This document shows positions 4,801 to 50,025 of a stretch of 50,653 nucleotides of DNA, piece by piece. This DNA comes from Saccoglossus kowalevskii (lineage: Eukaryota; Hemichordata; Enteropneusta; Harrimaniidae): assembly GCF_000003605.2 (NCBI RefSeq), contig NW_003137830.1, forward strand, positions 549,638-600,290. Reading direction: 5' to 3'. The translations under genes and the position numbers were made by a program. Under the pieces are notes generated by a model. It did no database searches. It was not told the origin of the DNA and saw only the letters and a list, made by a program, of their open reading frames with translations. Positions within the stretch are counted from its first letter, which is position 1; every line of letters begins with the position of its first letter.

Positions 4801-7800
4801 TATTATGTTACATTATGTGGTTTATTCCCTCTTACAGCATTACTGACATATTATTGATTAATAAATATTTCAAAAAATTTGTAATTTTCAAGATGCCGAA
4901 TTGTTCAGTTATGGGCATTGTGTTACGAGCATCAAGTTACGATGACATTGTACAAATGACCACACTCACTTTTGCAAAACCACGCCCAAATTGTAACTCA
5001 AAGCCCAATTTACATTTAACAAACTTCAAGTTTCGGGCAACATATATTTTTATTTTTGTTAAACGTCCACATTTAGTAACTCAAACTTTAAATAACAGTT
5101 AATCGAACGTTGAGTTACAGGCAATGATGATAAGTTACTACAATGGAGAAGATACATTAATCAGAGTCATATTTTAATTTATCATGTATAACGACAGACA
5201 TGATTGACAGTAACTGGCACTTAACTTGCACAGGTGCTAATTGCAAAATGACACTCCATATTTGTGTCTAAGAAGACATCTTGTTTACAACATTCGGTAT
5301 TATATAGTAAAACTTGATACAAACTACAAATACAACTGACTATTAATTATAGTTAAAGCAACATGTATTTCTGATACATCTGATTCTCTCTAAATAAATT
5401 AAATAAAGAGAAATCACAACATTTTCTGAATACTTACATCAGTTAAACTAACTTCCCATTCTTGCCATCTCTGACATTGAGCTTTCTCCCAGGGGTCATT
5501 GGGATATAGTTTATTTCCTGGCAGAACAGTGTCCAGAAACTCTGTTATGACATTGGATTCAAACAAACAACAGTCTGGTATATCCTACATACACAAACAT
5601 AATTCATTGGATTGCTAGTGGTTAATCTGACTATTATTTGTCATATGTTACCAATTGAATTTCATATCATACACTCTAGGATCATATTAATTGATCTGAT
5701 GGTGCCTGAGAAGGCTGTACAATTGAACTGGTGTGTTCCATCGAATTGTTTCTCATTATATTAATCTGATAGTGCCTTAGGATGTACATACATGTAACAT
5801 GAAATAATGTTTCAACATGATTAGTCAAGTCATGTCAGAGATTTGGCTCTTGAACAGAATTCATTATAACTAAAGACGGTCATTTTAAATTTAACTGATT
5901 TGAAAAACAAAATGACATGGATCAAGGTTTCAATGTATGTAGTAAATTTGAATGAAATCCATCTGTACATGACCAAAATCCAGTTCCGGAATGGCAGCCA
6001 TGATAGATTTCAATGAATTTGTAACATTAAAATGGTGCCCATTCAGCCATCTTGAATCTGATCAGCAAACAAATACATGTACATACATGTGATATGATGT
6101 ACAACGTATATGTACGTATAATGTTTTAACATGAACGGTCAGACATCTGGAACAGCATTTATTTAAAAGAAAATGGCTGCCAGTTGGCTATTTTGAATCC
6201 AAATGATGTGCATCAAGGTCTCATAATGTTCAAACTATGTACCAAGTTTGAACAAAATCCATACATGACCAAGATGCAGTTCCAAAATTTAGATAAATTT
6301 TTAAGATTAAAATGGCCGCCATTCTACCATCTTTAGGCATTTATGAATTTCACAATTTTATTACATGTAATAGTTTATGCAATATTAATGTAAATTACAA
6401 AAGTGTTTCTGTGATCAAATAAATAATATTTTAATGATTCAGTGTACAACACTTCTATTGGAGATATGCTTTTAATATAAAAATACAGTAAGCAACATAC
6501 AATGTAAGTGCGAAGGAAAGGCAATGCATACAATAAGACCTATGGTACGACAATGACAGGTTGTGTCAATGTTGTATGATTAATTAATATATAGTTCAAT
6601 TATGTGCAATGTGTATTGAAGTTTAATTTCTTTATTTATCTTTAATGAAGTACATAGAAAGTTAGTGTATAAAATAGATATACTCACATCCACGTTATGT
6701 ACAATTATTGCTGGCACTTTGCCATTGGGATTTATTTTCAAGTATTCAGCTGTTTTCTGCTCAGCATTTAACAAATCCACTTCAACCTGTTTGGAAACAC
6801 ACACATGATTCAAGGTGATAAATCGAGTACATAATAACGTGTACATACATGTGCCAGACAATACCTGTCATATATCAATAATGTGATTGCAAGGAATCTA
6901 ACAAAAGGCACATGGATGATGTTGTGTAACATTACATTATCAATTTAAGAATCAATTGATTCTTTTGACTTGATATTATACAGTCGTCATGCTGCATCAT
7001 GTTCGATGTGGGACCCATAGCGACTCACACGTATGCAAATTACTTTGTTTGTTTACATGAAATCCGAACACGTGCTGTATGATGACAGTAGCTAAAATGC
7101 ATGTCTGCTAATATTATTTTTATATTTCTTTATTTTTTATTTTTTCAGTTTTTTTTTATTACATTTGTTTATTTATGTCTTGTTATTCTCTTTACCGTAC
7201 TAAATCCTCTGATGATTTAGTTGTGTAATAAAGTTATTATTATTATTATTATTATTAAAAACAGCTTGCTTAAAGCTGGGAACAGGATAAGATACACATG
7301 GACTTTACTACTGTACTATACATGACAAAATTAAACTTGGCTAAGAGGCCAAACTGGTTAATAACTTATGCAAGTTTGAAAAAGTTCATATAAAATTGTT
7401 ATTGTAACCACAAAAAAAAACATGTATGCCGAGGACAGCAACAACAATGGGGACAGACATTTTCCCCATGTATACCTTTCCCTTCATCTAATGAGGATTG
7501 TGCAAGCTAATAAAATGAATATTATTATTATATCACTCATGTATATAATACCTACTGTGTTCCACTGTCGTCCTTTCTCAAGAAGTGTCATACGTACACG
7601 TCTTCCACATGGACTAGCACCAGCATCATACAGAGTGATCCCATCACGTAGACGATACTTTCTGAAAAAAAAATTTTAATATAACAATGGAAAAAATGAT
7701 CATACGTTCTACTATAATCAGTGTGATCTTTATCATTCTTTGTTGCATAAAGCAAAGGGCTTTAGCAGATTTATTTTTGCATTATTCAAATTAAACTAGT

Positions 7801-10800
7801 GAACATCAGAAATGCAACCACAAAAATGTTTCTAAAAATAATTAAAAAGCAAAAAAAAAAACAAAGAAATAAAGAAATTCAAAATTAACTATCATAGCTC
7901 TGCTAACAATGCTTAACAGAAACAAAACAAATAAATGTTTACATCTATGGTGTAGTCTGGTTTATCAACTAACTTCCATTGAAATCTGTTTTTTGATATA
8001 CTAGAAACTTACATAATGAATTAATAATGAAAATTTGGTAACTACTGTAGAATACTTTATTTTCGCTTGGAATTTATTTTCGCTATTTTCGCTGAAGGGA
8101 TGTTTCCGTGAAAATAAAATCCAGCGAATATACTTTTTTTCCTATATTTCACATTAAACTCATCAAAAATCAGTGAAAATAAATTCCACACAAAACGCCC
8201 AAAAAGCCTTTTCAGCAAAAATTAATTCCAGCAAAAATAAAGTATTTCACAGTATTAAACATGGCTTTCAAACGTAATGTAACCAATACAGAAGACTAGG
8301 GTAATTGCTATGCAAGTAATTCAAGCCTAAATGACACGAATATGTGGCTTACCCCAGAGCATCTACATACCAAGTTTCATCAATGATGACTGGTTCTTGA
8401 GATATGTCAAACAGCTAATATTGCTAATTGTTATGCAAATTGGATATTCAATATTCATGAATTTGAACCAAGAACTAAAGAATTATGTACCAAGTTTCAT
8501 TGAAAGCTGGTTCTTCAGATAGCAATAGAAAAGTTGAACATTGACAAATTATTATGTAAATTAAGTAATTAATAAGCATGGATTTCAAACAAAAAAAATA
8601 AATCAGCTCTATATTACTAAGTACTAGCCTAGGTAAACAGTCTTTCCCACAATGCAATATTTCAGTGGAGAGAGCTATTAAACCTTCTAAGTTTAATAAC
8701 AATAATAAAATAGCACAAATGTCTCCCGAATCCTGGCCGTATATGTGTGTGTGAAGTTTGAATGTAATCGACCCAGCCATGATGTACCATGCAGATACCC
8801 ATCCCTGTTTTCAAACCCTAAAAAGCAGGATTCCGGAATTCCCTGTTAACTTGCTGTATGATTAACTCCCAGCATGCAGTGCGACAAACTCCCGACATGC
8901 ACTGGGTAAACTTCTGGTGAACTGTCCATGTACACTACTTTGTGTCACATGCGTGTATTTTTGGGAGCTGTGTAGTCTGTATTACTGTAAACGGAATTTT
9001 AATAAAAATTTAACTGTTTACCGATATTGAATTTGTACTTATTCCGTCAAACAGGATTTTCCCTTCTGAATAGGTACTAACAAATATGGGGAAAATACAG
9101 AAAATACACTATACTGTATTGCTAGATATTAGAAGAATTATATAGAAGATAATTTGCTACTAATTTCAAAAACACCATCAAAATTACAGAATTCAATAAT
9201 AAAATAACAGGAATAAGTGTAACAGACCCCTTAACAAGGAAATATTCTTTTATGAAAGAAAAGAAATCAATATAGTTAAAGATTTCAATTATCTTGGCTT
9301 AATTATGAGTCCAAATGGTAAATTTAAAGATGCCATGAAAAACCTAAAAAGAAAAGGAATAAAAGCCTTATTCTCATTAAAGCCCAAAATTACATCTGGT
9401 AGTCTGGACATGTCCATACTACTGTCACTATTTGATAAACTTATCAGACCAGTTATTGTGTATGGGAGTGACATTTGGGGAGAAGAAAGTTGTAGAAAAT
9501 CAATTGTAGAGGATGTCCAGCATACATACTATCGGTACATTCTTGGTATCTCAAAAAATACACCAATCATGGCAATATATAGTGAATTGGGAAAATTACC
9601 TCTTGACTCTTTTATTAAGAAGCAAATGATAACATATGCCAATCGTATTGCAAATTCCACAAATACTCTACTTCGAGAAGCATACTATGTCAATAAAATT
9701 ATTAAAAGTAAATGCTTTAAAAAACTTGATTTGATATTAAACAAGCAGCCTGTCGGCTGAGATAGCTCCGCTGTTAGCATTGCACATTTCAATTAAAGAA
9801 CAGAAGATATCATTAGAAAATGAACAATATGTATAGTATCAAAACAATCAGACTTGCGGTTTTCAACAAGAAGTGGAAAATATCACTTTTTACCAAAAAT
9901 TACAAAAATATTCACTAACATTAGAGAATTGAAGATATCATCATGAAATGAACAAATCTGAGAGAGGTTCACATGTAGTACCTATATATGTAATATAAAA
10001 GCAATTGGACTTATGATTTTCAACAAGAAGTTGAAAATATCACTTTTTACCAAAAATGACAAAATTATTCACCAAAATTAGAGAATTGAAGATATCATCA
10101 TGAAATGAACAAATCTAAGAGAAGCCCACCCAAGGTACATATATATATACACCAAGTATCAAAGCATTCAGGCTTGTAGTTTTCAAGAAGAAGTGGAAAA
10201 AGTAAAACATTGACACGGACGACAACGAACGACGGTGGACAACGAACGACGACGGACAATCACTCATATGATAAGCTCCGCTCGACAAAGTCAACAGCGG
10301 AGCTAAAAATATAAACCATTCTTATCTTTTAAATAAAACAAATAGTATCTCATTATCAAAATTAAAAACAATTCATGAGAAATTAAAAGAAGAGTTTACA
10401 ACTGAGTGGAAAAATGAAATAAATAATGACAATAGGAGAAAATCAAATTCTAAAAATAAACTAAGAACCTACAAAATTTTTAAAACAAAATAGAACAAGA
10501 AAACTACTTAACAATTATGAAAAACGGTGAACTTCGCAAATCCTTAAACAAATTTAGACTTGGCAACCACTGTCTGAAAATTGAAACAGGTCGGCATACA
10601 GGATTGGATTTTAAAGACAGAGTCTGCAATATGTGCGACAATGACCATGTTGAAGATGAACAACATTTTGTCATAAATTGTCCTCATTACAATGAAATAA
10701 GATTAAAACTTTACATTGTAGCTTGTAAGCTAATAAATGTATACCAAATTTTGACAAATTTAGTCATGAAAATAAATTCATATCATTACTAAGTGATGAG

Positions 10801-20498: not shown

Positions 20499-23400
20499 TC
20501 ACTTTGCGTGATGGCCCATCTTGATAGCATCCAATGCACGACCAATATCACCACCCTTGGCTTCTAACAGGCTAGTTAACCAACCACCTTCATCATCAAA
20601 CCCCATAGCTTTCATCTGTTTCAATGCTTGTGCTAATCCACTATCTGTAATGAGATTTAACAACACTTTAGAAACATGACTGGCATGGTAGATGCTATTT
20701 ATCCCCACTTTCAATGTAACAATATGATCTTGATCCAAGTTCAAAAAACAATTACCTTTTGCAGGGGTGCCATCTTGGGGTGCAGAACTGACCGGGTCTT
20801 GTACAACTGTCCAATCATTTTCATCACTAGATCCACCTTGCCCTTCCTTGGCAGGAACATCAGTTTCCTGCAAGTCAAACGTAAATGAATATCTTATATA
20901 CAAAATAAATTGGGTAGTTTAATAAAAATTTTATCAAACCCTGAAAATATAATATATTAATTTTGGTTATTTATTTAGTCTTGTAAAATTACATTTAATA
21001 TGTTGGGAACAGCAAATCATAGGCTGTAATGTGAAGAGTTATGTATAGTAATTCATAATTTACCATTGGTGAAGCAGTTTCTTCATGATTCTTTGGAGTA
21101 TTCTCATTCATTGCTTCTTGGTTGTCAGTTGAAGTTGCTTCTTTAGCAGCACCAGCTTTTGCCTCAGCTTGAGCCTTGCGACGTTGGCATCTTCCACCTT
21201 GACCACCACGACCTCCACGTCCTCTACCACAACCATGTGGACCTCTTCCCCATGGATGACCAGGACCAGGACCTTTACCACAACGTTTACGCATACCATG
21301 GTGTTCTACATCAACGTCAACATCAATACCTGTGAAAACAAATCCAAATTATTATAAAATATGTTATGTTGGAATATTAAGAAACCACAATTTTTAAGGT
21401 TCTTGACATATCTATTTTTTTTTAACCGCACCTTTTTTTGTAAACATTGATAGTTGTTGTTTCCGTTCATTGAACATTGCCATTCTTCTAGGACAATGTA
21501 TTTGTTGACATCTTCTGGTTTGTTTACCACTGAAGACACAGAATTGGTAGGGTATTATGGGACTAATGTCTTGATCTCTGCATGGTCTTATTATCGGGTA
21601 AAATCCCCTTCTCTGCTGTTTCAGTTGCTGCACTTGGTGAAACCTTTTGAATCGTTTGCCACCAGAGAAACCAGATGGTCCTAGGGGTACATGGGTTCTA
21701 ATGAACCTATGACATTTAAAAGATCTAGGCATTGGGAAAAAATTTCCCCCATGTCGCCTCACTTTATGTCGTTGTAGCCATTCTGTCTTGTCTGCATTGG
21801 GAAAACAACGACCTGTACGAGGACTTGGTCGCATGTAATCTAAGCCAGTGCATGTTGCTACTTTATGAATTCTCTTTAGGTTTCGTTGCGGTAAACGTCT
21901 TATGAGTGGTCTTTTACGATGTTTTTTGTTTGCTTTAAAATTAATTGAAAAAAAATGTCTTTGTGAGATAAACTGAGGAATTAATCCAACTAGATATAGC
22001 AAAAGATGTAAGGAAAAGTGAGGTGACGGGAATGTAACCCAAAATTGTATCAGTTACCGTAAATCAACTTACCAAATGGTCCCAACATGTCAGCCACTGC
22101 ATCACCAACATTTTTCAGATACTCCTCCTGTGGGTTGGCCCCCTCAGTTGGATTCTCAGAAGCGCCTTCTTCGGCTGGTGCATCACCTTCAGGACACTTC
22201 TCTGTTTGTTCTTGGTTTCTTTGTCTCCACATACGGTTCCATTCCTGAGCCATTCTGGGACGTAAACCACCAGCAAAGAGTTGCCAGAGACCAGGACGGA
22301 AGGAGAATCCCTGTTTGGACAAGACATGTTGTGTAAAATATGGAGTCCAATACAACATGTAACTGAAAGCAAAGGATGCCATGTCTCATGGAACCTCAAC
22401 TACGAGTCAATTACTCTACAATTACTACAATCAATTTTAAATTCGAAATATCAGACACAATGCTCATAAAAGATCATTTAAACCAACTCACCCCCATATG
22501 GCTACGACCAATCTGTGGTTTACGAATCTTAATCATCTCATGATCTGGGTGAAGTCCTTTCTCCTCACACCCTTTACACAGATCATAGTCTGGACACACC
22601 GCACACTTGAAACGTGGTCCAAAGATTCGACCTTCGCATCCATCACAGATCACCCCGGGATGAAGGACTTTCTCACCACATTTTGACTCATCATGGGAGA
22701 CTTTTTTACCAGTCACTAAAATTAAAAGTGAACAGTTTTAAAACATAAAGATCAAATAACGATTAGAGTTTTATAGAAGAATGAATATTACAATCAGTCT
22801 ATAAATAAAATCAGTGTATGATGTCATAGAACCAAATTCTCCCATCATGCAATGCTTCAATTTTGATTGCATCATCCATCACCTCATTCCAGTTAAAATA
22901 GATACAGGCATGTTTGATACTCACGTTTGATGTAGACTCGGAAGATATCTTCACTGAGCTGACCAAGAGCGTCAACTAATTCTTCATCACTAGAGAAAGC
23001 AATCAAGTCACCCTCACTATCTGAAATATCCAAGAGAATTGAAATATAACTAATGTGTCACTGCAGTTTTTTGTTTTTAGTTGAATTGCAGTTCACAAAT
23101 TTACTTTCACTAAAAAATTTAATTATTTGTATGCCAACAGGACAGGTTGTTGTTTATTTGTATGCTTGAGGACAGGTTCTGAACATCCACAAATATTAAT
23201 TATTATTTATTTCTAATATAATATAAAAAAAAAAAAAACTGGCTATTTCATTCTATTAAAAAATGTCTGCCTTTCAATTTTGCAATGTAATGGTTTGTTG
23301 ACAATTTCGATTAAGTTAGGCAGGCTGTTCATGTCATGTGATAATTAGAAATAGAATATGACTACTGCAGCTGACACAACACAGCAATGACGCAGATAGA

Positions 23401-24317
23401 AATAAAATTCTTCAAAATTTTACTATGCACATTAGTGCATGGTGTAAAATGAAGGTTTTCCTAATTATTTCTGTTTTCCCTTCATGTCAAAGGGTGAACA
23501 TTTTTCACAATTTTCAGCACTGATCTTTGTTCTTATAAATGTGATCATCGCAAACTGTGATTCAATTTTGAATCAATATATATATATATTCACATCACAT
23601 GTGTTTAATTCTGTTTCCTATTCAAAATCACAAAAGAGTGATAAGCATAATAAATCTCCATACCAGCTAGAATAGATTACAGAAATTCTGGCTATTCAAT
23701 GCAGAAAAACTGAAAGTCAAGGGAACCAACAGTAGTGTCAAAAGTAAGAGTATGACCATTTGCATCCTCTACAGTTTTCAATGCAGTTTTGAGATTGATA
23801 ATATACAAATACAACACCTAATATTAGCTGTGAATCTTATTGGTATCAAACCTGAATGGGGAAAAGCATATACATGTACCAAAGAGAACTGTGAAATACT
23901 TTATTTTATATAGCTGTAATTAATTTTCTCTGAAAAGACATTATTGCTGTTTTGTATTTTCACGGATATTTGATGAGTTGGTGTAAAAATACAGGAAAAA
24001 AAGGCATTTTCGCTAGATTCCATTTTCAGTGATTCTCCCTTTCAGTGACAACAATTTACAAGTAAAAATAAAGTAATTTACAGTACTGCTAAAACTAACC
24101 AACAAATATATGATCTATTGCCATTTGACAGTTGTCATTGCTACTTACCTCTGTATGAGAGGGTAAATGAATCCGATCTTCCAATAGATGGGAATACCTG
24201 TGTTATTTTCGTAGACAGGTACTCGTAGCTTGTGGATGCACCCTGATCCACAGCAAATCGACGAATTTCTTGACTGTCGTCGGCAGTCTGCAAATATGCT
24301 TTCACTGTAATAGACAT
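20499..24317 (-). CDS. SQSTM1: Sequestosome-1/p62, copy A (selective autophagy receptor)
   Basis: Canonical exons on the minus strand: 24149-24317, 22925-23020, 22492-22715, 22073-22310, 21064-21329, 20756-20867 and 20499-20644 (416 residues). PB1 is residues 1-88, with [13 protein letters not shown] and the acidic [15 protein letters not shown] motif. ZZ has C112/115/126/129/135/138 and H144/147, with all three N-degron-pocket Asp (113, 131, 133; human 129, 147, 149). The conserved [13 protein letters not shown] is followed by an RGG/GRG-rich stretch, the [13 protein letters not shown] (W350, V353) and a C-terminal UBA with [11 protein letters not shown] do not see a DPSTGE-like KEAP1-binding motif. 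An additional 167-codon exon may be included (separate entry). MNM at 24323 is an alternative start. It is divergent from SREBP. Confidence 0.95.
21432..21932 (-). CDS. Novel phase 1-1 cassette exon of p62 copy A, 167 codons
   Basis: The frame is fully open from the acceptor TTTTAAAG (before 21932) to the donor AAAG|GTGCGG (after 21432), 501 bp. Both ends are phase 1, matching the canonical exons on each side (22073-22310 and 21064-21329). It can therefore be skipped or included without breaking p62. The product is very basic (Arg/Lys/His), with scattered Cys. Its C-terminal half has [16 protein letters not shown], and 44 residues later a diverged second unit ending HCPRRMAMF. By hand count about 40 of 67 residues match the equivalent exon in p62 copy B. 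I know of no such domain in p62 elsewhere. Inclusion in mRNA is inferred. The donor GTGCGG is weak, so inclusion may be partial. Confidence 0.7.
22495..22569 (-). repeat. ZZ-exon tract identical in both p62 copies
   Basis: About 75 bp encoding the end of the ZZ exon ([19 protein letters not shown] region) is identical with about 46525-46599, whereas the upstream half of the same exon differs strongly and by 7 codons. This suggests a gene-conversion tract or strong constraint. Confidence 0.6.
23888..24085. mobile_element. MITE, TACTGT...ACAGTA family, copy 2 (reversed, diverged)
   Basis: On the minus strand it begins TACTGTAAATTACTTTATTTT and ends AAAATAAAGTATTTCACAG, with internal CTAGCGAAAATGCC and TTTTTTCCTGTATTT matching copies 1 and 3. 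It lies in the first coding intron of p62 copy A. Confidence 0.7.
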
Positions 24318-39390: not shown

Positions 39391-39869
39391 TAAAGTTGTT
39401 TTGTCGGCTCAGTGAATTTTGTTTGAAGGTATTGACATGTCAAATAATATATGTACTGTAGTAAATGTAAGAGTTATGGTATTCACAATACATACGTACA
39501 GTTAATGTACAACTTAATTTTTGACAAGTAACATAAAATTCCCCGAAGTGGGGCGTTATATCATAAAAAGAAGTAACCTGAGTAAATCGAAAGGCTCTGT
39601 ACTATCATGTGGCCTAAGTAAGTTACTTATGAACCCTCTAGGGGAGCAAATAATACATAGTATATCAAACACAAACCAGGCCTGAACACAAACAATATCA
39701 TCTAGAGGCGTGTTACACGGAATCGTGTTATTTTATTTACTTCTAGGGAGTCATGCTGCCATTTTCCGAGACAATTATTTACACTGACACTACACGGTAC
39801 AAACTGATAAGTTGTTGACTTCTCTAGTAGTGGGCGAGACTGAGTAAGTAAATTTAACTTTCTGGAGTC

Positions 39870-42061
39870 ATGGCAGCTTCTAAACCCTATCAATTGGTTG
39901 AGGAGCTTGACGAAGACCTTTTAAACTGTGAGATATGTTCCGATCGTTATACCAATGCGAAACTACTTCCGTGTCAACATAGTTTTTGTGAAGATTGTCT
40001 CGTTACGATGGTCTCAAGGAGTGGACTTCCTGGCGTTGTTATATGTCCTCTGTGTAGACGTAAACATGACATTCCTGGCGGCATCTCAAATGTAGAAAAT
40101 AATATGTTTATTAATCAGTTAGTAGAGGTTTTCAATGTACGAGATGAGAATACCTGTCAGCCGATAAAATGTACAGCGTGCGCAGAGTCAGAAGTCATTA
40201 AACGATGTTTGGATTGTGCAATGGATGTATGTGACAACTGTGCACGTGCTCATACCAAGTTTCCAGTTACCAGAAATCACACAATCATAACACTGGAAGA
40301 ATACAAGTCGGACAAGACAGGGCAACTCCACTCAGCTGTTTACTGTGATAAACATCCGGATAATCAGATAAAATTATACTGCGACACATGTGAAGTGGCC
40401 ATCTGTCTAGAGTGTACTGTGATCGACCACCATCATCATCACTGCAAGTATCTGGATAATGCAGCATCAGAATTTAAAGAGAAATTAAGTGTGATGGTAA
40501 AGGAAATGAAAGTGAAGGAAAAAGAGGGAAGACAAAGTATAGTCTCTGTACAGAAGGTGTCCGATTCACTCGAATCCAATTTCAAGCAGGAAGAATCAAA
40601 GCTCTGTCAGTTTGTAGAGAAGATGATGGAAGAAACCTCACGTAAAATACGTGACAATGGAGCAACACTGATGAAGGAGATAGAAGACGTGCATAAAGTG
40701 ATGCAGAGTAACTTGAAAGCTCAACTGAAACAACTGGAGACATCAACCAGTGATTTAACTCGTACAAGAGAATTTGCTGAGAATCTACTGACTCACGGAA
40801 ATGCATCACATTTGATGTCTGCTAAGAAAAGCATGTCATCAGAATTACCACGACTACTAGAAATGTGCATTATACAAGAACCAAAAGAAAGTGACTACAT
40901 AAAGTTCTGTCCATCACAGAAAGTAAACCAAACTGCAGACATTGGGGTGATATCGACTCACCACTGTCTTGGTATTCACTCTCATCCTAATATTGTGAGA
41001 ATCCAAGATGATGTCATCGTTACCATGGGAAACAAGTTGAAAATAAAAGAACCGATTACACTTGACTGTATACAGGCTGCATTGAAGACACCCAGTGACA
41101 AACCTGTTAATATGACAATAAAAAATAGCCATGATGGGTCAGTAGAATTTAAATTTAAAGCTGAAAATGTGGGTGATTATGAACTGTCAGTATCATCATA
41201 TAATAAACCAGTGATGGGGTCACCTGTCAGCATAAATGTAATTCCGAGAAAAGGATTGATTTGTAATTTTGGTAGAAATAGCCCAGGATTAGGGAAACTA
41301 TCTTATCCCTTTGGTGTAGCATTGACCAAGAAAAGGAATATTTTAGTTTGTGATAGTGCCAGTAAAAAAATACAACTGTAGGGCGTCTTTCATTCCACTA
41401 TTACATTCAAAAATTTTCCAAAGTCATTCCATCCAATGTATTCTGCAGTGTCAGATGAAGGGTATATATTCACTACGGACCGTATCAATAAACAGGTGGT
41501 TGTATGTGATGACACCGGCAGACTAATAAGGTGTTTTGGTAACAATGAGCTAGATGATCCTCATGGCATTGCCATTAGTCCAACAAATGGGAAAGTGTAT
41601 GTTGCAGATAGAGGCTCAGATTGCATCAGATTGTATAGCCAGGAAGGAGATTACTGTACGTCTTTTGGTAGAAAGGGAAATCAGTCAGGAGAGATAGACG
41701 GATTGAATGGAATTGATGTTAACTGCGATGGCAATGTTGTTGTACCAGAAGAATATAATAATCGTGTACAAGTGTTTGAGCCATTTGGCTTGTCACTATT
41801 TACCTTTGAAGGAAACATCAAGGGTGAGTTAAACCAGCCAGAAGACGTGGTGACTGGCAGTGATATGTGTATGTATGTGTGTAATTATGGCAATGATAAT
41901 ATACTGAAGTTTGATAGTCGTGGTAGATATGTAGCTAGAATTGATAGCGACAAAGATAAGGTGATTTCCCCCAAGGTATATGTTTAACGGATGACAAACC
42001 TTATGCTAGAGTGATAGTTGCAGAGTATACAGGAAGGTATGTGAAAATATTTGCGCAATGA
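39870..42061 (+). pseudogene. TRIM2/3/71-like RING-B-box-filamin-NHL protein, broken by one stop and one frameshift
   Basis: The gene is intronless. The first 503 codons (39870-41381) encode a RING (from Cys20: CEICSDRY...CQHSFCEDC...CPLC), B-box 1 (CTACAES...), B-box 2 (CDKHPDNQIKLYCDTCEVAI), a coiled coil (about 197-320), a filamin/ABP280-type repeat (about 350-460) and the first NHL strand. A TAG at 41379-41381 then interrupts the frame. The same frame continues open through 41987 with four NHL-type units (DDPHGIAIS...VYVADRGSDCIRLYS). After that a one-base loss in the C-run near 41968-41972 ends the frame at TAA. Reading the shifted frame restores the usual end GICLTDDKPYARVIVAEYTGRYVKIFAQ-stop at 42059-42061 in parts. 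Active family members are E3 ligases or RNA-binding repressors. The disruptions suggest decay; a truncated RING/B-box/filamin protein could still be made. Confidence 0.85.
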
Positions 42062-44707: not shown

Positions 44708-47700
44708 CTATTTAGCAGTAGCTTGAGCCTCTCTTTGAGCTTTGTAACATTGACAACGATGACAACCAATCCCGTTAGAACCATGCGGACCTCTTCCGCA
44801 TGGATGTCCACGGTTTTGTTTCATCCAAAAACGTTCACGCATACCATGGTGATCTACATCAACATCAAAACCTGTAATGACAAATGAAACTAATTAATTT
44901 ACTTGTAACGTTGGAACGTTGGACATGGAACACATACTAGCACTTTAATGATGGCAATATATGCTACATACCTTTACTATGTTTCATTCTAGGAGATATA
45001 TTTGAGGATAAATGTTTATTCTGTGCAATGAACATTGCCATTCTTCTAGGACAATGCATTTGTTGAAATCTTCTGAATTGCCCACCACCGGAGACACAGG
45101 TTTGGTTGGGTATTACGGGACGAATGACTCGACTTCTGAATGGTCCTAGGACCGGGGAAAATCTTTCTTTCAGGTTTTTCAGTTGCTGCACTTGGTGAGA
45201 CCTTTTAAATCGTTTACCACTGGAGACACATATAGGGTTTGGTGTCATCTTCTGAATTTTGATTTGGTGATCTCTGAATGGTTTTGTCATTGTGGAACAT
45301 CTTGTGTGATGTCTCACTGGTTGTGCTTGATCGGGTCTTTTGAACTTTTTACCACCAGTTGATCTACATCTCCCTATGTTATGCCACATGCGTCGTGATT
45401 GGTGCAATCTTTTGACTTGTTTACCATCAGAGGCACACGTTGGTATGGACTTCATATTGGGATCAACGCTTCGGTGTGGTTTGGATGGTTTTGTCATAGT
45501 GGTAGAGTTTCTCATAGGCATTGTGACTTTCTGTGATGGGTGGAATTTTTTGTATAGCTCAGCGTCAGAGAATGGTGCTGTTTTAAGCAGTATTCTTTGG
45601 TTATTCCATTTGTGGCCTCTGAAAGGTCTTAGCGAAAGTCTGCGTCTGCACCGCTTTATTTGCTGTTCTTGTCGGAATTTTTTTAGTTGGGTTGACATGT
45701 TTATCATACTGCGGCTGCGGTCTCTGCAACATCTGGGAGATGTTTGGAATGTTGAACATTTCCCTGCAGGTTGGTTTAAACGATGTCTTTGGTGGTTATT
45801 TTCTCCAGTCTTACTATCTCCATAGTTCTTTCTAACATCAGTTGGCTTTTTGAAAACAGCTTTTCGTTGTAGAAGTCTTTTCCGTTTGGGGTTCGCTACA
45901 AATAACGAATTTGCAAATTGTTAGAATTTAAGTTTTATATTTGTTTAGCCATGTTCATAATTATGAATGTGTGAAAGGCAGATGGACAATGGATATGGTA
46001 CTAGATCTGATATGCTGCCCCTTAACTAACTTACCTAATGGTTCTAAGATGTCAGCATCACCAACGTGTTTCAAACACTTCGGATGTGGGTTGATCCCCT
46101 CAGTTGTATTCTCAGGAACATTCTCCTCGGTTGGTGTATCATTAGCCGGACGCGTTTCCTCTAGTATATTTTGCCTTTGTCCCCACTTATTATTGCATTT
46201 GGGAGTCACCTTATGTTGAAACCCACCAGAGAGAAGTCGCCAGATACAAGGACGAGAAAATCTCTATAAACATAAAAGAGGAGATTCTAACTAGCAACAT
46301 AAAAATGTAACACAGCAAATATTTTATTAAATATTTGTAAATTATTTAATATTATATTGAATAATTTTATCAACCAGTCCTTAAATATGAGATAGAAGTA
46401 TTTATATTACTGTATAAAGCTCACCAATTACATAGCGCATAAATGTTTTCCTCTCTTTAATATATTTACATTAATGTGAAGTTTGGTTAAAACTTTGGCA
46501 AAGATAATGAAACAAACTTACCTTCATATGGCTACGACCAATCTGTGGTTTACGAATCTTAATCATCTCATGATCTGGGTGAAGTCCTTTCTCCTCACAT
46601 CCTTTACACAGATCATAACCAGGACACACAACACACTTGAAACGTGGTCCAACAATTCGGTTTTCACACCCATCACACATTATTCGAGGATAATGTACTT
46701 TCTTGTGATACTTTTTACCAGTCACTGAAGAGAAAAACAGCAACTCATTGTAAGTTATATATGTAACAATAGAAAAAGCCAAATTCACGATGTCATATTG
46801 GTTATTCATTAAATATGCGCAATGTGCAATGTGTGTGTTTGTATAATCGTGATATCGGTTACTGTTCATTTCAAACTGGTTTCCAAAAGCACGAGTCAAA
46901 CACGTTTTGGGTATTGCGTTTGACGAAAAGCGAGTGAGTGACGTCAATGTACGAGCGTTAAATTTATTATTTATTTCTATAAGTGTTATATTTCTTTGAT
47001 ATAGTATGTCATCATGCAATAAATATACTTACGACGTATGTAGACTTTTAAGATATATTTACTGAGTTGGCCAACAACGTCTTCCAATTCTTTGTCAGTG
47101 GAAAAAGTGATCGAGTCACCCTCGCTATCTGAAATGGTAATGAGATATACTTCATTTCGTTCTATCTACTGTCACAGAAGTCGACTCGGATATTCAGTCA
47201 TGTATAGTCGAGGATATTTTACGTAAATATTCTATAAATGAACACTGTTCATGACATCACTGTCCGATCACGTCATCATAATCATCGCTAAATATCACAA
47301 AACAACATTAAATAAGAATTTCTCTGAAAATTGAATAGTGGCCATATTTTATGACTCAGTTTTCAGACGATATTAACTGGCGGAATTTAAAGGTATACAA
47401 TAACTGTCGCAGCTGACACCAATTAGTAAATAACAGAGGTCAGATATGAACTGTACATGTTTACTATCGCGTTAAGGAAATTAACTATACAAGTTTTCAA
47501 TTGTTACAATGTCGTATTTAGTATTTAATCAATTGTTCCGATACAATGTGATATAATTTTTTTTATAATTATCTATAATTGTAATAACGGCAAATTGTGA
47601 AATACAAATAAGTTACGAAAATTTGCAAATATTTATTTGAAACACGCCTATTAGTGTGTCATATATTCGGTTACCGAGTCGTTGCTTATGGAATGTAGAA

Positions 47701-47895
47701 AAGTAATGAAATAATAAAATGCTTACCTCTGTACGAGAGTGTGAACGAATCCGATCTTCCAATAGATGGGAATACCTGTGTTATTTTCGTAGACAGGTAC
47801 TCGTAGCTTGTGGATGCACCCTGATCCACAGCAAATCGACGAATTTCTTGACTGTCGTCGGCAGTCTGCAAATATGCTTTCACTGTAATAGACAT
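44708..47895 (-). CDS. Sequestosome-1/p62, copy B: truncated paralog without LIR and UBA
   Basis: Exons on the minus strand: 47727-47895, 47033-47128, 46522-46724, 46035-46263 and 44708-44871, all phase-compatible (286 residues), plus a cassette exon (separate entry). PB1 is complete; its first exon is identical in protein to copy A. The ZZ finger keeps its eight ligands (C105, C108, C119, C122, C128, C131 and two His), but CPGYDLC has Gly124 where copy A and human p62 have Asp (human Asp147), one of the N-degron-binding acids. The equivalent of the VDVDVEHHG exon starts normally (GFDVDVDHHGMR), then stops with TAG at 44708-44710. The exons for LIR and UBA are absent downstream. It could bind copy A through PB1 but not ubiquitin or LC3, acting as a modulator; that is inference. 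It may also be decaying. Confidence 0.85.
44972..45895 (-). CDS. Novel phase 1-1 cassette exon of p62 copy B, 308 codons, with ~45-residue repeats
   Basis: 924 bp are fully open between the acceptor TTTGTAG (before 45895) and the donor AAAG|GTATGT (after 44972). Both ends are phase 1 and lie between the same two exons as the 167-codon exon of copy A. It begins ANPKRKR, matching ANKKHRKR in A, and ends with HCPRRMAMF plus a short tail, as in A. Four repeat units carry cores CASDGKQVKRLHQ, STGGKKFKRPDQ, CVSSGKRFKRSHQ and CVSGGGQFRRFQQ, spaced 23, 46 and 44 residues. A linker resembling TMTKP(F/S)(R/K) precedes two of them. The product is strongly basic with regular Cys and His. Such a long open frame in AT-rich DNA, with both boundaries kept, argues for coding function. 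Metal or RNA binding is speculation. Confidence 0.75.
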
Positions 47896-49227: not shown

Positions 49228-49317
49228 AAAATATCAATCAACTGTAGGACACAGTTTCAGGTCAAAACTTATTTATAGACTGTGTTTATATTTCTGACAA
49301 CTATCATACTTCTCTAT

Positions 49318-50025
49318 ATGGCGTCTTTCATTCCACTATTACATTCACGAATTTTCCTCAAATTCATTCCATCCAATGTATTCAGCAGTGTCAAATGAAG
49401 GTTATATATTCACAACGGACCGTATCAACAGACAGGTGGTTGTATGTGATGACACCGGTATACTAATAAGGTGTTTTGGTAACAATGAGCTAGATGATCC
49501 TCATGGCATTGCCATCAGTCTAAGAAATGGGAAAATGTATGTTGCAGATAGAAGCTCAGATTGCATCAGATTGTATAGCCAGGAAGGAGATTACTGTATG
49601 TCTTTTGGCAGAAAGGGAAATCAGTCAGGAGAGACTAGACGGATTAAATGGAATTGGTGTTAATTCTGGTGGCAACATTTTTAGAGCAGAATAAAATAAT
49701 AATCGTGTCGAAGTGTTAGACCCATTTGGCTTGTCGCGATTTACCGTTACATTTGAAAGAAACATTGAGGGTGAGTTAAACCAACAAGAGGCCACGTGAC
49801 TGGCAGAGATATGGGTATGCATGTGTGTAATTACGCCAATGATAACATACTAAAGTTTGATATCCGTGGTAGATTTGTAGCGATAACTGACAGTGACCAG
49901 AATAGGATGTTTTCTCCCTGCAGTGGGTAAATGTTTAACAGACGACAAACCATATGCTAGAGTGATAGTTGTAGAGTATACAGGAAGGTGTGTGAACAAT
50001 ATTTGCGCAATGAAATAATCTAGAG
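49318..50025 (+). pseudogene. Partial duplicate of the TRIM-NHL gene, NHL end only
   Basis: It starts at GGCGTCTTTCATTCC, exactly where the parent TRIM has its premature stop (41382), and follows the parent to its end. The open part (49376-49663) encodes NHL repeats nearly identical to 41436-41723. Two extra bases near 49633 shift the frame, and further stops and indels follow (for example TAA at about 49690). RING, B-box and filamin parts are absent. It is clearly non-functional as a TRIM protein. Confidence 0.9.

Follow-up and report, generated by a model that had tools for sequence, protein, structure and literature searches.

An additional basic exon in three of four p62/SQSTM1 genes of Saccoglossus kowalevskii looks like a real but unproven addition to p62

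Three of the four p62/SQSTM1 genes seen in the genome of Saccoglossus kowalevskii carry an additional exon, here called exon X, which looks like a real but unproven addition to p62. The three homologous exons (924, 723 and 501 bp in copies B, C and A) occupy the same p62 intron, and all are open, a multiple of three in length and in phase 1-1. In our preferred reading, held at a probability of roughly 0.4, exon X is a genuine coding exon that would encode a basic disordered arm, displayed on PB1 polymers and binding anions multivalently, with copies B and C serving as PB1-recruited adaptors; its splicing, translation, disorder, binding and co-assembly are what we infer from the sequence.

Location and gene context of exon X

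The window, the whole stretch of 50,653 nucleotides analysed here, contains p62 copies A and B, whose exons are collected in Table 1. Exon X of copy B sits between exon 4 and the following exon, is bounded by AG and GT, and is stop-free over its full length (924 = 3 x 308). Position, length, borders and phase agree with the preliminary description, and a homologous open exon lies in the matching intron position of copy A, as also described there. The reported C-terminal identity between the two exons (about 40 of 67 residues) is close to our count of 43 identical residues in 77 aligned, 41 of them within the first 69. The four cores assigned to copy B are found at residues 152, 176, 221 and 265, with Cys-to-Cys spacings of 23, 46 and 44, and the two of copy A start at residues 86 and 130.

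Table 1. Exons of the p62 copies and core units of exon X (window positions unless a locus is named)
Feature	Position	Strand	Details
Copy B exon X	44972..45895	-	924 bp, phase 1-1, 307 whole codons + split codons
Copy B exon X core unit 1	45399..45440	-	TCASDGKQVKRLHQ
Copy B exon X core unit 2	45327..45368	-	CRSTGGKKFKRPDQ
Copy B exon X core unit 3	45192..45233	-	ICVSSGKRFKRSHQ
Copy B exon X core unit 4	45060..45101	-	TCVSGGGQFRRFQQ
Copy B exon 1	47727..47895	-	PB1, first part
Copy B exon 2	47033..47128	-	PB1, second part
Copy B exon 3	46522..46724	-	ZZ zinc finger
Copy B exon 4	46035..46263	-	linker, next exon upstream of X
Copy B exon after X	44708..44871	-	terminates in stop
Copy A exon X	21432..21932	-	501 bp, phase 1-1, open
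Copy A exon X core unit 1	21634..21675	-	14 residues
Copy A exon X core unit 2	21502..21543	-	14 residues
Copy A exon 1	24149..24317	-	PB1
Copy A exon 2	22925..23020	-	PB1
Copy A exon 3	22492..22715	-	ZZ
Copy A exon 4	22073..22310	-	linker
Copy A exon after X	21064..21329	-	RGG-rich
Copy A LIR-like exon	20756..20867	-	contains DENDWTVV
Copy A last exon	20499..20644	-	UBA
Copy C exon X	5399-6121 of locus L004		723 bp, open, phase 1-1, AG/GT bounded

Distribution of exon X and domain content of the p62 copies

Protein search of the 572-Mb genome with exon X of copy B (E up to 0.001) leads to three places: copy B itself, copy A, and a new copy C located on the contig of B at a distance of about 150 kb. 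With exon X of A or of C as the query, protein searches of the genome (E up to 1) returned no further gene; the A query recovered A and B, the C query recovered C and B, and neither recovered the other, the direct match between A and C having an E of 2e-4. The ZZ exon, used as a genome query, identifies four strong p62 genes (A, B, C and D) together with three weak matches of 40-42% identity. Copy D lies on a different contig (locus L020) and is a full-length p62 gene with PB1, ZZ, LIR-like and UBA exons and without exon X; its intron at the exon X position measures 158 bp, and none of the three X proteins (A, B, C) matches the locus. The intron of copy D between the ZZ exon and exon 4 contains a tandem array whose unit, judged by eye, is about 70 bases long.

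PB1, ZZ and UBA pass the Pfam cut-offs in copies A and D, and PB1 and ZZ pass them in copy B. The ZZ zinc finger is present in all four copies by Pfam, copy C being a partial sequence, and PB1 exon 1 is found only in A, B and D, the sequence of C being incomplete. UBA is found only in A and D, not in B and C. The motif DENDWTVV, which we take to be a LIR, occurs in A and D; a LIR exon was looked for and not found near B or C, and neither a LIR nor a UBA exon was found beyond the last listed exon of copy B. Remains of a lost tail behind the stop codons are weak, with shuffles scoring as high in 5 of 500 cases against D and 66 of 500 against A for copy B, and in 9 of 500 and 428 of 500, respectively, for copy C. 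Pfam at E up to 0.001 gives no FW domain in A, B (without X), C (partial) or D. The exon after X is rich in RGG/GRG in the full-length copies A and D and is reduced in B and C; to our knowledge, human p62 has no RGG/GRG-rich stretch of that kind.

Structural matches are in line with the p62 identity, since PB1, ZZ and UBA of copy D, and PB1 and ZZ of copy B, match PDB chains named Sequestosome-1, while PB1 exon 1 of copy B by itself has no PDB match at 0.001. Aligned with Sequestosome-1 chain 9hge_A, the PB1 domain of copy B keeps VKAYL and EIRRF, the motifs in which we place K7 and R21, and its acidic loop reads RDSEGD against RDEDGD. By domain content, B and C count as paralogues of p62 but fall short of complete receptors.

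Searches for known families and for an origin

Exon X of A or B contains no Pfam domain at E up to 10, and no NCBIfam match was found for exon X. In a Pfam scan of the three members, DUF501 (E 0.0089) and HxlR (E 0.4) each matched one member and are taken as chance; both are absent from member B, which, with the null result for A and B at E up to 10, leaves copy C. A single unnamed PHROGs family over 17 residues of B (E 0.0059) and the best PDB matches (E 0.16 with B alone, 1.6 with the three-row A/B/C profile) are likewise taken as chance. With only such chance-level matches in Pfam, NCBIfam, PHROGs and PDB, exon X resembles no known family convincingly.

Two origins were considered. A transposon-derived domain is not supported, only the three p62 exons having been found in genome protein searches at E up to 0.001 or 1. 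A viral or bacterial origin was rejected, with pattern matches only (2, 91 and 88 stretches) and no tblastn relative in viral or prokaryote contigs. Among the matches listed from the open-licence literature, none describes an additional basic repeat domain for p62. Relatives of exon X in other species may exist and be already annotated, and lineage specificity, as proposed in the preliminary description, is a candidate reading.

Splice sites and maintenance of the open frame

Splice sites were scored with a position matrix derived from the other splice sites of these p62 genes (18 donors, 18 acceptors). Exon X donors score 3.8 (A), 9.7 (B) and 8.5 (C), the other donors ranging from 5.9 to 13.3, and exon X acceptors score 3.4, -3.1 and 6.1, the other acceptors ranging from -2.5 to 17.8. 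Of all GT in the window, 7.4% score as well as the donor of A, and 42% of all AG score as well as the acceptor of B. These two sites score lower than every other site of their kind in the set, so exon X may be included inefficiently or under regulation. Omission of exon X preserves the frame in A, B and C, and we call it a cassette by hypothesis.

Not one of 5000 dinucleotide shuffles was stop-free for any of the three exons, and the other frames of exon X in copy B hold 18 and 22 stops in the sense direction and 20, 13 and 7 in the antisense direction. Unconstrained drift was simulated with 300 runs per kappa (1, 2 and 4) in both directions. Over the B-C distance (231 differences, 234 aligned codons) neutral drift produced a mean of 11.2-11.8 in-frame stops, compared with none observed, and 0 of 300 runs stayed open at each kappa and in both directions. 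Among 300 neutral runs, 1-3 stayed stop-free when the first 100 codons of the B-C alignment were taken, 0 or 1 over the A-B alignment (186 differences, 158 codons), and 12 over the A-B C-terminal block alone. Shuffles and drift simulation together indicate that the reading frame is guarded, in support of the proposal that the exon has been kept open and is not a chance opening. Indel lengths were set aside as coding evidence because the gap counts are not decisive (multiples of three in 4 of 6 gaps for B-C and 3 of 5 for A-B, on nucleotide alignments).

These results bear directly on the view that X is not an exon, being instead an unspliced intronic open frame, left over from an element or arising from base composition. 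The weak donor of A and weak acceptor of B would suit such a frame, but its persistence in three copies with lengths of 3n, the failure of every shuffle, and the lack of any other homologue in the genome protein searches or in viral and prokaryote contigs leave this view very improbable.

Selection on the encoded residues

Amino-acid constraint on exon X is weak. The dN/dS values are 0.51 for B-C (bootstrap 0.34-0.70), 0.59 for A-B (0.37-0.94) and 0.44 for A-C (0.22-0.83), and the 77-codon A-B C-terminal block gives 1.14 (0.61-2.6). Neutral runs gave a value as low as that of B-C in 0 of 300 cases in both directions at kappa 1, in fractions of 0.003 and 0.013 at kappa 2, and of 0.070 and 0.080 at kappa 4; for A-B the fractions are 0.003 and 0.007, 0.067 and 0.053, and 0.233 and 0.260, respectively. 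The B-C value is thus low at kappa 1 and 2 but not clearly at kappa 4, the A-B value at kappa 1 alone, and the support from dN/dS is soft. Differences between B and C are spread almost evenly over the codon positions (0.306, 0.328 and 0.351 on the nucleotide alignment). Outside exon X, the B-C comparison gives a dN/dS of 1.52 for exon 6 and 0.85 for exon 4, and the ZZ domain gives 0.16-0.25 for B and C against A and D and 0.58 for B-C, with a wide range (0.21-3.3).

Values of this kind may also reflect a relaxed, tolerated insertion, in which X is translated but serves as little more than a spacer, selection keeps just the frame and an approximate composition, and B and C are paralogues heading for decay. 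The A-B C-terminal block with its dN/dS near 1, the almost even codon positions, and the fast exons 4 and 6 of B and C, together with their poorly bounded ZZ value, are consistent with it, and copy D dispenses with X and UBA was not found in B and C. However, the ZZ domains of B and C are constrained relative to A and D, none of the roughly 11 stops expected between B and C is observed, and the G-K-x-F-K-R cores are common across copies; we therefore consider a relaxed insertion possible, if on the unlikely side.

Repeat units and the metal-binding question

The core common to the copies is G-K-x-F-K-R with a flanking Cys or Phe. Self-alignment scores 121 in B (shuffle mean 40.4, maximum 82; 40 shuffles) and 72 in C (mean 32.9, maximum 47; 40 shuffles), while A alone does not exceed shuffles, its score of 29 lying close to the mean of 80 of them (28.7). 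Unit HMMs carry from copy to copy, with the B model finding C at 46.0 bits, the C model finding B at 55.3 bits and the model of B and C cores finding A at 46.0 bits, each with 0 of 2000 shuffles as high, although these scores partly reflect the homology of the copies as well. The proposed repeat family is thus supported by internal repetition in B and C and, for A, by the model of B and C cores, in exons of differing lengths. Extra units marked by eye in the N-terminal halves (B1, B2, C1, C2) were discarded, shuffles scoring as high in 1848 of 2000 cases for B and 1745 of 2000 for A; the N-terminal half of C is marginal only (19 of 2000).

A Cys/His metal-binding fold, raised in the preliminary description, is unlikely because the C-H-C-H arrangement is complete in only one of eight cores. 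Cys alternates with Phe, and the last two positions of the arrangement are absent in four of the eight, with ligands assigned by eye. The relic of a C2H2 zinc finger was also rejected. C2H2 fingers follow the spacing C...GK.F.....hydrophobic and repeat every 28 residues; CVSSGKRFKRSHQVQQL displays this spacing but is without the second Cys and both His. The second Cys occurs in 0 of 8 cores, core spacing in exon X is mostly 44-46 residues as against 28, and no zf-C2H2 Pfam match was found in A, B or C.

Charge and predicted disorder

Net charge per residue of exon X is 0.211 in A, 0.202 in B and 0.175 in C, and by the charge-hydropathy boundary formula, a rule of composition, all three exons fall on the disordered side. 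Under neutral drift over the whole alignments the charge would fall, with means of about 0.11-0.14. At kappa 1, a charge beyond the upper end of the neutral 95% range is seen with B as end point, at 0.205 starting from C (neutral 0.070-0.175) and 0.228 starting from A (neutral 0.057-0.177). With C (0.179, neutral 0.083-0.188) or A (0.190, neutral 0.063-0.190) as end point, also at kappa 1, the observed value touches the limit of the range or falls inside it. Over the first 100 B-C codons the charge of 0.16 lies at the neutral mean (0.164), and the A-B C-terminal block is within the neutral range. Given these mixed end points, retention of the charge is suggestive only.

Another reading takes the basic clusters as additional nuclear localisation signals, which would move p62 into the nucleus. 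Exon X contains PKRKR and GK.FKR clusters, and mammalian p62 carries both an NLS and an NES (PMC3332208), but exon X is much longer and more repetitive than an NLS requires, and we give nuclear targeting very little weight.

History of the copies

Among the 558 sites common to the four copies, 39 patterns support the split AD|BC and 2 and 6 the alternatives, and AD|BC wins in 1000 of 1000 bootstraps. An origin of exon X before the duplication agrees with its presence in A, B and C, but copy D is without it. Presence in A, B and C but not in D implies that D lost X, that D branched first, or that A received X from B or C by gene conversion. With the root between AD and BC, X would have been lost in D or passed to A from B or C; with the root on D, X would have been gained once. 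Third-position differences (A-D 0.219, B-C 0.246, A-C 0.289, A-B 0.326, C-D 0.335, B-D 0.345) favour the root between AD and BC, without proof.

Exon 1 shows a separate pattern, with 97.6% DNA identity between A and B, compared with differences of 16-32% in exons 2, 3, 4 and 6. At third positions, 4 of 56 differ in exon 1 and 74 of 227 in the other four exons (P 5e-5). The exon changes slowly between B and D as well (P 0.009), and perhaps between A and D (P 0.066). Gene conversion of exon 1 between A and B is possible, and constraint may contribute.

Copy B is flanked by closely similar genes or gene pieces at 39858-41987 and 49298-49663, presumably of TRIM/NHL type, which have the stretch FHPMYSAVS.EGYIFTTDRIN in common; their presence on both sides suggests several local duplications in the region. 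Elsewhere in the window, element remains at 9203-10792 contain open frames of 185 and 102 residues and are, we assume, reverse-transcriptase-like, and a tandem 45-bp repeat of nine copies at the window edge (1-417) contains an open frame of 102 residues on the + strand. The COX1 gene of this genome reads TGA as Trp, has ATA at places where Met is conserved and contains neither AGA nor AGG, in agreement with an invertebrate mitochondrial code.

Proposed function and comparison with known systems

According to our preferred reading of a polymer-displayed basic arm, exon X would have been gained in one lineage of p62/SQSTM1 genes, placing a mostly disordered, repeat-built and strongly basic segment after the ZZ finger and ahead of the C-terminal half of p62. 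Displayed in many copies on PB1 polymers, such arms would form a multivalent cationic surface for nucleic acid (as RNA or RNP) or for other anionic partners, which would be drawn into p62 bodies. The RGG-rich exon after X in A and D also points to nucleic acid, and residues K7 and R21 are required for p62 polymers and RNA binding (PMC9014876). Copies B and C, in which LIR and UBA were not found, would enter p62 bodies only through PB1 partners, serving as adaptors where the full receptors A and D form the body; no PB1 domain was found in the incomplete sequence of C. NBR1 joins p62 through PB1 and is recruited to p62 bodies (PMC9582228).

Copies A and D resemble mammalian p62/SQSTM1 and Drosophila Ref(2)P in possessing PB1, ZZ and UBA, and the fly homologue keeps the PB1-ZZ-UBA order (PMC3332208). 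The present genes differ from known p62/SQSTM1 in the exon X of A, B and C, in the ending of B and C before LIR/UBA, and in the number of four gene copies. NBR1 has a similar PB1-ZZ start and common ancestry with p62, but it is set apart by its FW domain, for which Pfam lists none in A-D, and metazoan NBR1 has lost the basic PB1 face, whereas copy B retains the motifs (NBR1 statements from PMC9582228). Exon X is also comparable to disordered basic or RGG-type RNA-binding linkers in its high K/R content, low D/E content and position on the disordered side of the charge-hydropathy rule, and by inference from this analogy it may work like a basic RNA-binding linker. Unlike the RGG type, exon X is not RGG and instead carries GKxFKR cores spaced 23-46 residues apart, plus Cys.

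A role in an immune arms race would make exon X a fast-changing surface for contact with the viral capsid or bacterial surface of a pathogen, or else a reserve of cationic peptides set free in autolysosomes. Rapid amino-acid change with an intact frame, differing unit numbers and high cationic content agree with such a module, as does the p62 route by which cytosolic proteins are delivered and then cut to antimicrobial peptides (PMC10196109), and the p62 homologue of the fly controls a rhabdovirus (PMC3332208). However, dN/dS is not confidently above 1 either in the A-B block or for B-C, and UBA and LIR were not found in B and C, and we judge this role improbable. Also quite improbable is a more specific proposal, in which B and C would be receptors stripped of LIR/UBA that keep PB1 and ZZ and bear a fast-changing polycationic repeat arm. 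As an immune adaptor of invertebrates, such a protein would bring nucleic-acid or microbial cargo into p62 bodies, and it would evolve through gain and loss of units.

p62 is among the most studied autophagy proteins. If the polymer-displayed arm is true, a sizeable extra domain in three of four paralogues, two of them without the autophagy end, would mean that the p62 scaffold can be re-purposed, and these genes would offer a natural test of how polymer-displayed charge affects p62 bodies.
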